Shown: piece after piece, positions 59,895 to 63,334 of the stretch
Position numbering within the stretch: the first letter of the stretch is position 1
Layout: each line of letters begins with the position of its first letter
Source of the DNA: Burkholderia ambifaria
Lineage (GTDB): Bacteria > Pseudomonadota > Gammaproteobacteria > Burkholderiales > Burkholderiaceae
Length of the DNA: 64,000 nucleotides
Assembly: GCF_001443045.1 (NCBI RefSeq)
Contig: NZ_LKPJ01000029.1
Coordinates: 1 to 64,000, forward strand
Reading direction: 5' to 3'
Program-made: the position numbers and the translations under genes
The notes under the pieces: model-generated
Database searches by the model: none
What the model saw: only the letters and a program-made list of their open reading frames with translations
Told to the model about the DNA's origin: nothing

Positions 59895-60776
59895 ATGACC
59901 AGCCGCCGCGTCCGCTTCAAACAGGTCGACGTCTTCACGTCGGTGCCGTTCAAGGGCAACCCGCTCGCGGTCGTGTTCGACGCCGACCCGCTCGGCGACG
60001 ACGACATGCTCGCGATCGCCCGCTGGACGAACCTGTCGGAAACGACGTTCGTGTGCGCGCCGACCGATCCGGAGGCCGATTACCGCGTCCGGATCTTCAC
60101 GCCGGGCGGCGAACTGCCGTTCGCCGGCCACCCGACGCTCGGCACCGCACACGCGTTTCTCGAAAGCGGCGCGCGGCCGCGCACGCCGGGCCGGCTGATC
60201 CAGCAATGCGGGGTCGGCCGGGTCGAACTGCGCGAGCAGGCCGATGGCTGGGCATTTGCCGCGCCGCCCGCACGGTTCACGCCGCTCGACCGTTCGGACT
60301 ACCCGGCGCTGGCTGCCGCGTTACGCAGCGACGTGATCGATCCGGACGCCGAACCGTGCGCGGTCGACAACGGCGCGCCGTGGCTCGTCGTGCGGCTCAC
60401 GTCGGCCGAGGCCTGCATCGGCCTCGCGCCCGATCCGGCCGCACTCGAGGCCATCACCCATCGCTACGGCGCGCACGGCCTCGCGGCCTATGCGCCCCAC
60501 CCCGACGGCGGCCCCGCGACGTTCGAAATTCGCTGCCTGATGGCGGGCGGCAGTTTCGGCACCGGCGAGGACCCCGTCACCGGCAGCGCGAACGCCGCGC
60601 TGGCCGGGCTGCTGAGCCGCCAGCAGCGCCGCCCCGGCCCGTCGTACACGGCCCGCCAGGGCACGGCGATCGGCCGCGAAGGCCGCATTGCCGTTCGCTA
60701 TGACGACGACGGCACGATCTGGATCGGCGGCCACGTCGTGACGGTCGTGGACGGCACGTTCCAGGCGCCTGCCTGA
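59895..60776 (+). CDS. PhzF-family isomerase
   Basis: A 293-residue protein of the PhzF/diaminopimelate-epimerase-like fold. The N-terminal half has VDVFTSVPFKGNPLAVVFDA (about 9-28), NLSETTFV near residue 46 with the catalytic glutamate, and PGGELPFAGHPTLGTAH (about 71-87). The C-terminal half has GEDPVTGSANAALAGLL. The enzyme type is isomerase or epimerase of unknown substrate; PhzF itself acts in phenazine synthesis, but no other phenazine genes are present. Last gene of the MocR-associated group. Confidence 0.88.
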   Translation: MTSRRVRFKQVDVFTSVPFKGNPLAVVFDADPLGDDDMLAIARWTNLSETTFVCAPTDPEADYRVRIFTPGGELPFAGHPTLGTAHAFLESGARPRTPGRLIQQCGVGRVELREQADGWAFAAPPARFTPLDRSDYPALAAALRSDVIDPDAEPCAVDNGAPWLVVRLTSAEACIGLAPDPAALEAITHRYGAHGLAAYAPHPDGGPATFEIRCLMAGGSFGTGEDPVTGSANAALAGLLSRQQRRPGPSYTARQGTAIGREGRIAVRYDDDGTIWIGGHVVTVVDGTFQAPA

Positions 60777-60885
60777 CGTTTCGCCATGTGCGATGGCGTC
60801 GACCCGGCTGGCGCCCTACGGTTCCCCCGGCTATCGCAAAAACGTTCCAGCCAGTAATATCGGGCCTAATCCGTCGCTTCGGCGG

Positions 60886-60994
60886 GTCTGTCCATGGTTG
60901 CGCATCCCGCGAACGAACAGACGCCGGTGCGGCCCCAACCATAGCCACCCATCTTGAGAGGGTGGCAAACGAGAGCAGGCGCCACCCTTTTTCG
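60886..60994 (+). promoter_or_regulatory. Structured leader with alternative hairpins before the GGDEF-EAL gene
   Basis: GTCTGT (60886-60891) can pair with ACAGAC (60917-60922), and ATGGTTG (60894-60900) with CAACCAT (60936-60942); these two stems cross, so they form a pseudoknot if both exist. GGGTGGC (60960-60966) can pair upstream with GCCACCC (60944-60950) or downstream with GCCACCC (60981-60987). The downstream form, extended by A-T, is followed by TTTTT (60988-60992) and then CG-ATG. This is terminator/antiterminator geometry; the purine-rich GAGAGCAGG is inside the terminator loop. No known riboswitch consensus was recognised. Confidence 0.5.
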
Positions 60995-63334
60995 ATGAGC
61001 TCCGCCCGGACAAACCACACGCCGCCGACCCGGCCGCTGCGCGCACCGCGCAAGTCGCGCCGGCGCGCGCTGTTCGCGATCCCGCTGCTCGGGATGCTGG
61101 CGCTCGCGCTCCTATGGGCGGTGATCATCGCGCGGCTGGCGGTCGAAAAGGACAGCGCGTACAAGGAAGCGGCGGCATCCGCGGCGATCCTGTCGTCCGC
61201 GCTCGAGCAGCATACGGTCAAGGCGATCCACCAGGTCGACCAGATCACCCGCTTCGTCAAGTTCGAATTCGAGAAATCGCCCGCCCGCTTCAACCTCGCG
61301 AGCGCGGTCGAAAAAGGTGTCGTACCGAGCGACACGCTGATCCAGGTCTCGCTCGTCAACGCGAAGGGCATCCTGTTCGCGAACACGGCCGAACGCCATC
61401 CGCAGCCGATCAACCTGTCCGACCGCGAGCACTTCAAGGTCCACCTCACGCACAACGACGACCGCCTGTACATCAGCAAGCCCGTGCTCGGCCGCGTGTC
61501 GAGCCACTGGACGCTGCAGATGACGCGGCGCCTGAACAACCCCGACGGCAGCTTCGCGGGCATCGTCGTCGTGTCGGAAGACCCAAGCTACTTCACGAAC
61601 GACTTCTACAACAACGCGGCGATCGGCAAGGAAGGCGTGATCGCCGTGGTGTCCGACACGGGCGCCGTGCTGGCGCGGCGCACCGGCTCGGTCAACAACG
61701 CACCGGGTGCGTTCTCCGCATCGGGTGTCTACCCGATCGCCGAGCGCGTGACGGGCACGATCATCGACCCGATCGACGGCGTGATGCGCATCGTGTCGTA
61801 CCGCCACCTCGACGGCTACCCGCTCGCGGTGATGGTGGGGCTGTCGCAGAGCGAGGAATTCACGGACTACTACCACACGCGCAACGTCTATCTGCTGATG
61901 TCGAGCTTCATCACGCTCGCGATGCTCGCGTTCTTCGGCGTCGCGACGGGGCTGATCGGCAAGCTGCTCGGCCGCGAGCGCGAGATGACCCAGCTCGCCG
62001 AATACGACCTGCTCACCGGGCTCGCGAACCGCTACGCGACGCTGCGCGGGCTGCGCAACGACGTGGCGATGCCGACCAGCCTGTCGCGGCTCGGCCTGCT
62101 GTTCATCGACCTCGATAACTTCAAGACCGTCAACGACACGCTCGGCCACAACGCCGGCGACATCGTGCTGCAGATGACCGCGTCGCGCCTGTCGGACGCC
62201 GTCGGCGACGAAGGGTCGCTCGCGCGGATCGGCGGCGACGAGTTCGTGGTCGTGATGAAGGGCGACGACGTCGAGCGGCGCGCGGTGCGGCTCGCGGAAG
62301 CGATCATCCGGATGTTCAGCGATCCGTTCGACGTGCGCGGCAGTTCGTTCGTGCTGCATGCGAGCATCGGCATCGCGCTGCACACCGTCGCGAACGAGAG
62401 CGAGATCGACCTGCTGAAGAAGGCCGACCTCGCGATGTACAGCGCGAAGGACGCCGGCAAGAACTGCTATCAGTTCTACGCGCCGCACCTGTCGCACCGC
62501 GCGGACCACCTGATGCGCTGGGAGCAGCAGTTGCGGGTCGCGCTCGCCGAAGGGCAGCTGTTCCTCGCGTACCAGCCGAAGATCGACCTGACGCACCGCA
62601 CGATCACCGGCTTCGAGGCGCTCGCGCGCTGGGACCACCCCGAGCATGGAATCATCTCCGCGAACGAATTCATTTCGATCGCCGAATCGACGGGCCTGAT
62701 CGTGCCGATCGGCGACTTCGTGATCCGCACCGCGTGCGAACAGATCGCGCGCTGGCGCGACGACGGCCACGACACCCTGACGCTCGCGATCAACATCTCG
62801 CCGGTGCAGTTCTGGCGCGGCGACCTGATCGAGACGATTTCCCTGGCGCTGCAGGACACCGGCATCGACGCGAACCGGCTCGAACTCGAGATCACCGAGA
62901 CCGCGATGATGGAATATCCGGAGCTCGTGTCCGAGAAGATCGTCGCGTTGAAGAAGCTCGGCATCCGGATCGCGCTCGACGATTTCGGCACCGGCTATTC
63001 GTCGCTGTCGTACCTGCACCGTTTCTCCGTCGACACGCTGAAGGTCGATCGCTCGTTCGTGCAGGCGATCCCGAACGATCGCAGCGTGTGCGTGATGGTG
63101 TCGTCGATCGTGCATCTCGCGCGCTCGCTCGGCCTGACGGTCGTCGTCGAGGGCACCGAGACCGAGGAGCAGATCGCCTGGCTGTCCGCGCTCGGCGAGA
63201 TCGAGGCGCAGGGCTTCCTGTTCTCGCGCCCCGTGCCGGCCGATGCGATCCCCGCGCTGATCGCGCGCTTCGGCGTGCGTGGCGACCGGCCGAGCGTCCT
63301 CACGCACCGCGCGACCGGCAGCACGGGCGCCTGA
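60995..63334 (+). CDS. CACHE-GGDEF-EAL cyclic-di-GMP protein
   Basis: A 779-residue membrane sensor. An N-terminal helix (about 25-48) and a second helix (about 300-320) flank a periplasmic dCACHE-like domain (about 50-295). The cytoplasmic GGDEF domain keeps an intact GGDEF (residues 413-417). The EAL domain keeps EALARW (about 541-546), the ELEITET metal motif, DDFGTGYSSLSYL, DTLKVDRSFV and VVVEGTET, so both c-di-GMP synthesis and hydrolysis look possible. ATG 60995 follows a structured leader; the frame upstream to 60788 lies inside the leader and is not coding. Confidence 0.92.
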   Translation: MSSARTNHTPPTRPLRAPRKSRRRALFAIPLLGMLALALLWAVIIARLAVEKDSAYKEAAASAAILSSALEQHTVKAIHQVDQITRFVKFEFEKSPARFNLASAVEKGVVPSDTLIQVSLVNAKGILFANTAERHPQPINLSDREHFKVHLTHNDDRLYISKPVLGRVSSHWTLQMTRRLNNPDGSFAGIVVVSEDPSYFTNDFYNNAAIGKEGVIAVVSDTGAVLARRTGSVNNAPGAFSASGVYPIAERVTGTIIDPIDGVMRIVSYRHLDGYPLAVMVGLSQSEEFTDYYHTRNVYLLMSSFITLAMLAFFGVATGLIGKLLGREREMTQLAEYDLLTGLANRYATLRGLRNDVAMPTSLSRLGLLFIDLDNFKTVNDTLGHNAGDIVLQMTASRLSDAVGDEGSLARIGGDEFVVVMKGDDVERRAVRLAEAIIRMFSDPFDVRGSSFVLHASIGIALHTVANESEIDLLKKADLAMYSAKDAGKNCYQFYAPHLSHRADHLMRWEQQLRVALAEGQLFLAYQPKIDLTHRTITGFEALARWDHPEHGIISANEFISIAESTGLIVPIGDFVIRTACEQIARWRDDGHDTLTLAINISPVQFWRGDLIETISLALQDTGIDANRLELEITETAMMEYPELVSEKIVALKKLGIRIALDDFGTGYSSLSYLHRFSVDTLKVDRSFVQAIPNDRSVCVMVSSIVHLARSLGLTVVVEGTETEEQIAWLSALGEIEAQGFLFSRPVPADAIPALIARFGVRGDRPSVLTHRATGSTGA

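Follow-up and report, generated by a model that had tools for sequence, protein, structure and literature searches.

A probable gene-specific promoter and structured 5' untranslated region upstream of a dCache-GGDEF-EAL gene in Burkholderia ambifaria

Bcal2449 of B. cenocepacia H111 is described, in the parts of PMC6335245 drawn on here, as one of five composite GGDEF-EAL proteins, with a periplasmic Cache sensor and with GGDEF and EAL domains that are both highly conserved. The same parts of that study report that loss of Bcal2449 alters colony form and virulence in insect larvae, and they defer the signals acting on the protein to later studies (PMC6335245). Such signals would presumably reach Bcal2449 via its Cache domain. 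With respect to transcription in this species, the portion of PMC4603805 on which we rely gives a -10 consensus of TAnAAT.

Here, we describe the region upstream of a gene of this type in B. ambifaria, carried on a 64,000 nt stretch of DNA (the window). An earlier note on this DNA had read positions 60886-60994 as a riboswitch-like leader preceding a c-di-GMP enzyme gene. We consider the region to be, with fair probability, a gene-specific promoter followed by the ordinary structured 5' untranslated region (UTR) of a c-di-GMP turnover gene, which shifts the focus from the leader to a promoter core and one simple hairpin at the ribosome site.

The gene and its probable ortholog

The gene is located on the + strand at 60995-63334 and encodes a 779 aa protein with Pfam matches to EAL (E-value: 2.1e-71) and GGDEF (E-value: 1.4e-38) domains, while the match to the dCache_1 sensor is under the curated cut-off (41.9 vs 45 bits). 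RIGGDEF and FEALARW are found in the translation, and the GGDEF and EAL motifs look intact. The upstream neighbour (59895-60776, + strand) is PhzF-like and the downstream neighbour matches chromate transporters; the assembly is a draft of 8.1 Mb in 82 contigs. An ortholog was identified in 65 of the 65 genus genomes searched. Following the ATG at 60995, substitutions show a codon-like pattern (0.96, 0.32 and 3.28 at the three codon positions). The ortholog behind leader L053 (genome G017, near position 724) lacks the codons that follow the third, as far as approximately codon 37, such that its first membrane helix is shortened; the L053 leader resembles the others.

This gene is the probable ortholog of Bcal2449, a match made by domain description and chromosome only. 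Genes with the BCAL prefix belong to chromosome 1, and two records in which the conserved block described below precedes the gene are titled chromosome 1, which is consistent with a BCAL gene. In both proteins, a Cache sensor is combined with conserved GGDEF and EAL domains, as far as Bcal2449 is characterized in the cited parts of PMC6335245. CdpA was ruled out as the ortholog because that protein, as described in the portion of PMC5835511 used here, has a PAS domain and is without a membrane segment; the remaining composite GGDEF-EAL proteins of B. cenocepacia were ruled out in part only. When a plasmid collection was searched for copies of the gene that carry a name, only partial matches were obtained.

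A conserved block with features of a promoter

The DNA upstream of the 65 Burkholderia orthologs was compared. A leader was retained if it contained CAGTAATATC within 250 nt before the start codon; 61 of the 65 could be aligned, and collapsing identical leaders (L024, L035 and L060) left 58 distinct ones. As CAGTAATATC represents the first ten bases of the conserved block, conservation there is partly a selection criterion. In L061, L062, L063 and L065 the gene is present and CAGTAATATC is absent from the 250 nt before the start, and these four were left out of the alignments. Alignment A1 contains the 50 long leaders, with the 8 short ones left out, and alignment A2 contains both the long leaders and these 8, which are missing approximately 45 nt in the middle. 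Substitution rates were counted in 49 leaders (L053 was left out because of the deletion after its start codon), with upstream intergenic DNA (3.31 per site) and third codon positions (3.28) as references.

The strongest conservation was seen in a 20-base block, CAGTAATATCGGGCCTAATC (60852-60871, + strand), which shows 0 substitutions in 20 sites among the 49 long leaders and is identical in 50 of 50, its first ten bases having served for selection. Its second half is altered in 6 of the 8 short leaders. The block includes a -10-like TAATAT (60855-60860), similar to the TAnAAT given for B. cenocepacia in the cited portion of PMC4603805, and we predict that it is a promoter core. A second element, CTATCGCAAAA (60831-60841, + strand; 1 substitution in 11 sites, 49 leaders), is a conserved upstream promoter element in the -35 region that is not TTGACA-like. 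The sites between the two elements (60842-60851) carry 3.0 substitutions per site, and upstream of both the DNA varies freely. From the position of the -10-like sequence, we infer a transcript start near 60867; the sequence is invariant up to 60873, and this includes part of what may be transcribed. A standard sigma-70 scan found no promoter at this location, as there is no TTGACA-like -35. For the same reason, an activator or an alternative sigma factor may be needed at this promoter.

In its own genome the block is single-copy even when 3 mismatches are allowed. With 2 allowed, 41 of 299 family genomes, all of them Burkholderia, contain it once each, and the other-genus genomes listed among the 299 do not contain it. 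Of 35 genome-contig stretches containing the 20-base block, 34 are from Burkholderia. The 35th match, in an unrelated MAG, was taken as chance; by eye, the surrounding DNA looks coding. Other genera were represented by 30 hand-picked genomes from 8 genera, 24 of which have an ortholog at E ≤ 1e-150 and 6 of which gave no match. The core GTAATATC is located approximately 60 to 185 nt before the start in 13 of these 24 orthologs, occurs twice and further upstream in L149, and was not found upstream of the other 10. By eye, an element related to CTATCGCAAAA is found at the same place in other genera, and the other-genus leaders differ in length and sequence between the core and the start codon. 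Within the long-leader lineage the promoter core hardly varies, and it turns up again in other genera. A CTTAAT-like element followed by CCAnnCAGTAATATC (corresponding to 60831-60871 of the window) recurs upstream of this gene in L135, L138, L140, L142 and L144-L147.

Stem-loops of the leader and a terminator-like helix

A long imperfect stem-loop (60873-60933, + strand) was assessed by its pairing relative to shuffled and slid versions. The outer helix P1 (60873-60877/60929-60933, GUYGY/RCRAC) encloses P2 (60886-60891/60917-60922, GTCTGT/ACAGAC), a stem that the earlier note had already pointed out, and P2 encloses P3 (60898-60902/60908-60912). Among the 797 cells of P1-P3, 97.1% were paired and 41 were changed on both sides, as opposed to 6.8 in shuffled data; neither value was reached in any of 500 shuffles. 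Slid versions paired much worse, with none equal to 97.1%. Pair types were no more numerous than in shuffled data (152/500), and two P1 pairs alternate U-A, U-G and C-G among the leaders. Under a purpose-written tree-aware null, whose tree was derived in part from the DNA being tested, no covarying column pair was significant (best E-values: A1, 2.9; A2, 2.7). In A1, the E-values of the two alternating P1 pairs were approximately 17, and these pairs showed 1 and 3 events per side. The 297 substitutions in A1 give covariation tests low power. Based on its pairing in the leaders compared, the stem-loop is likely, not proven, to be real.

The earlier note had combined P2 with ATGGTTG/CAACCAT (60894-60900/60936-60942) into a possible pseudoknot aptamer. 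Both stems are present in the window and do cross, and over the 50 long leaders the first is 97.7% paired. The second is 85.6% paired, a value at least equalled by 472 of 500 shuffles, and one of its pairs is unpaired in 18 of the 50. This second stem was ruled out on conservation; as it fails against shuffles, a crossing-stem pseudoknot aptamer is unsupported as a conserved device. In single-sequence ensembles, P2 had a probability above 0.5 in 20 of 58 folds, compared with 7 for the crossing stem, and the arm 60886-60922 is absent from 8 of the 58 distinct leaders. In two short leaders without the inner arm, L054 and L055, the P1 strands adjoin as a small hairpin with mean P1 probabilities of 0.59 and 0.97, respectively. 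Folding of the 141 nt leader of the window gave a z-score of -1.88, with 9 of 200 shuffles equally stable, which is a slight excess only.

Closer to the gene is hairpin H1 (60944-60966, + strand), in the window GCCACCC/GGGTGGC. Its homologous register is 60949-60954/60960-60965, which is CCATCC/GGATGG in relatives; in the window this register is weakened and the shifted pairing 60944-60950/60960-60966 is stronger. The corresponding stem of the earlier note is accordingly retained as a hairpin in most of the 58 leaders, but in a slightly shifted register. Across the 58 leaders, 382 of 406 H1 cells were paired; when 6 pairs were counted, the paired share was 96.5% of 346 cells (a percentage reached by 42 of 500 shuffles) and two pairs were changed on both sides (matched by 35 of 500). 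The covariation score was reached by 426 of 500 shuffles, so H1 is not supported by covariation as such. It is supported by its rate pattern of conserved arms and a free loop, with 1.0 and 1.17 substitutions per site in the arms and 6.67 in the loop (3 loop sites scored). The H1 region folds at z < -2 in 50 of 58 leaders (the 8 exceptions include L059, L064 and L066), and in single-sequence ensembles started near 60867 H1 has a probability above 0.5 in 36 of 58. According to alignments A1 and A2, an AGG at 60977-60979 (+ strand) is the remnant of an AGGA Shine-Dalgarno-like site found in relatives, whose GGA is kept in 55 of 58 leaders and is absent from the window. This site lies approximately 14 nt before the ATG, which exceeds the usual distance and leaves the ribosome site uncertain.

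The earlier note had built a terminator/antiterminator switch on three repeats, GCCACCC (60944-60950), GGGTGGC (60960-60966) and GCCACCC (60981-60987), followed by TTTTT (60988-60992) and the ATG at 60995. All of these are present in the window, and the two helices that they allow are mutually exclusive, with strand 60960-60966 common to both. The second, terminator-like helix (60960-60992, + strand; GGGTGGC/GCCACCC plus T5) has a loop of 14 nt, and its T run stops 2 nt short of the ATG. In most relatives GGGTGGC is GGATGGC, and opposite the downstream CGCCRCCC a central mismatch arises in 52 of 58 leaders, which rules out this helix as a conserved device. The 7 bp helix is complete only in the window and L006 (2 of 58, with one U-G in L006), and five T precede the start in 4 of 58 (the window, L017, L045 and L048). 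Because the complete helix and T5 occur together in the window alone (1 of 58), the terminator is confined to this lineage among the leaders compared, and the proposed switch did not hold up as a conserved device. A terminator scan of 60700-61100 found none, the scan taking loops of 3-8 nt and thus being blind to one of 14 nt. The ensemble of the window gives 0.90 for the terminator fold and 0.10 for H1, and by partition function the competing helix has a probability above 0.5 in 6 of 58 leaders, including the window. Of the four stems of the earlier note, 60886/60917 and 60944/60960 are supported by the comparison of leaders and 60894/60936 and 60960/60981 fail it, and no covarying pair was significant under the tree-aware null.

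Counts of similar repeats provide a chance expectation. A 7-mer with its reverse complement on both sides within 45 nt occurs 27 times on the + strand of the window, and a mean of 21.8 times in 20 dinucleotide shuffles; in itself, a doubly flanked 7-mer is common in this GC-rich DNA. When five T follow, a single case is found on the + strand, with none on the - strand or in the 20 shuffles, and among 2000 shuffles of the 143 nt leader 27 contained a flanked 7-mer and 0 contained one with five T. A flanked 7-mer followed by five T is rare by chance. Judging from the leaders compared, the terminator switch has the appearance of a coincidence restricted to this one genome, not of a riboswitch; a convincing-looking switch of this type can arise in a single GC-rich genome.

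Interpretation and comparison with known systems

At the gathering threshold, Rfam gave 0 matches in the window, including to c-di-GMP-I/II, SAH, SAM and guanidine families, in agreement with the earlier note, which had recognized no GEMM (c-di-GMP-I/II), SAM, SAH or guanidine consensus. At E ≤ 10, five sub-threshold matches were found in 60777-61100, none of which is a riboswitch. A covariance model of the leader has one strong place in its own genome, this leader (147.3 bits), and three further matches at E ≤ 1 (26.7, 17.9 and 17.2 bits). The 26.7 bit match was rejected as a second copy of the RNA and taken as chance, with mainly a short GC stretch in common. Of 5 divergent genus genomes searched with the model, 4 gave the ortholog leader, as opposed to 0 of 7 genomes from other genera; since the model misses the leaders of other-genus orthologs, the gene can do without this leader. 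In other genomes, the model also gave weak matches (E-values 0.004-0.95) at places away from the ortholog. Among the papers listed in literature searches, none was seen to deal with this leader.

If the region is a gene-specific promoter with an ordinary structured 5' UTR, the nearly invariant core at 60852-60871 probably starts the transcript near 60867, giving a leader of approximately 128 nt. In the long-leader lineage, this RNA would fold into the stem-loop at 60873-60933 and then, just before the ribosome site, into H1. Most likely H1 is a fixed structural element that blocks the pairing of GGATGGCG with CGCCRCCC beyond the AGGA, and it would thereby set the openness of the ribosome site and the stability of the mRNA, affecting translation. 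We infer that no ligand is sensed. In the present genome, a few point changes would have completed the competing pairing, which is then followed by five T; the resulting terminator-like look, which no other lineage of the set shares, need not be regulated. Should the fold have an effect, the state in this species would be the less open one.

Neither a riboswitch nor an attenuator is demonstrated, and several other explanations were weighed. That H1 acts in this species as an antiterminator against the GGGTGGC/GCCACCC-T5 terminator, the choice being made by a ligand or by the pace of polymerase or ribosome, is unlikely: both helices are complete in the window with one strand in common, the terminator fold dominates its ensemble and the repeat with five T is rare by chance, but the complete helix with T5 is confined to 1 of 58 leaders and the mismatch extends to 52, the 14 nt loop and a T run stopping at the start codon are unfavourable, and past 60891 the loops are the more variable parts of the leader in terms of substitution rate. 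Control by a leader peptide is possible but unlikely. Here, ribosomes on a putative 16-codon upstream ORF (60894-60944, + strand, ATG to TAG) would open H1 and alter access to the main start, by coupling or attenuation. An NTG start is found at the equivalent of 60894 in 42 of 50 long leaders (38 ATG, 3 TTG and 1 CTG), and a GGAGG is positioned 7 nt upstream in 25 of 58 leaders. In 27 of 58 the stop codon finishes 4 nt short of H1; leaders that have lost it show a frame that overlaps the main start (L006, L014 and L042) or reaches it in-frame (L039, L041 and L043). However, the peptide is unconserved by eye, with codon 4 varying at its first and second positions and L042 having a one-base deletion within the frame; the GGAGG is altered in the remaining long leaders, including the window (GGCGGG); and the start is absent from 8 of 50 long and 7 of 8 short leaders. 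It is this lack of peptide conservation, together with the missing starts, that makes such control unlikely.

A combination of these ideas, in which a Burkholderia-specific cis-acting RNA would alternate between H1 and a helix looping out the ribosome site, be tuned by the upstream ORF and here have turned into a transcription terminator, is improbable; if true, a translational switch would be seen evolving into a transcriptional one. Very improbable is the reading preferred in the earlier note, a metabolite riboswitch with a pseudoknot aptamer. The leader does precede a c-di-GMP enzyme gene and one crossing stem is conserved, but the second crossing stem fails against shuffles and rarely forms in single-sequence folds, the arm is missing from 8 of 58 leaders, the loops are variable, the leader model has one strong place in the genome and finds none of the other-genus ortholog leaders, and no Rfam riboswitch matches. 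CsrA-type control through two GGA motifs, one in the 3' arm of H1 and one in the AGGA site, can almost be dismissed: both motifs are present in 49 of 58 leaders, but both are absent from the window, and the search for the CsrA family, which was positive in E. coli and B. subtilis controls, gave no match in the source genome (G000, scored as 100% complete), for which CsrA control was rejected.

Returning to the preferred reading of a promoter with an ordinary structured 5' UTR, three kinds of known system can be compared with this leader. Like the c-di-GMP riboswitches GEMM-I and c-di-GMP-II, it precedes a gene for c-di-GMP turnover; unlike these, it is absent from Rfam matches to E 10 and has one strong genomic place. 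As in terminator/antiterminator attenuators, one strand can pair either way and the second helix is followed by T5, but the terminator here is unconserved, its loop is 14 nt and its T run is at the start codon. Structured 5' UTRs in which a hairpin adjoins the ribosome site form a general class, and the leader is similar to these in that H1, with its conserved arms and free loop, lies directly upstream of the Shine-Dalgarno-like site. It differs from the general class in that, among the genomes searched, the H1 leader was seen only in this genus and before one gene.
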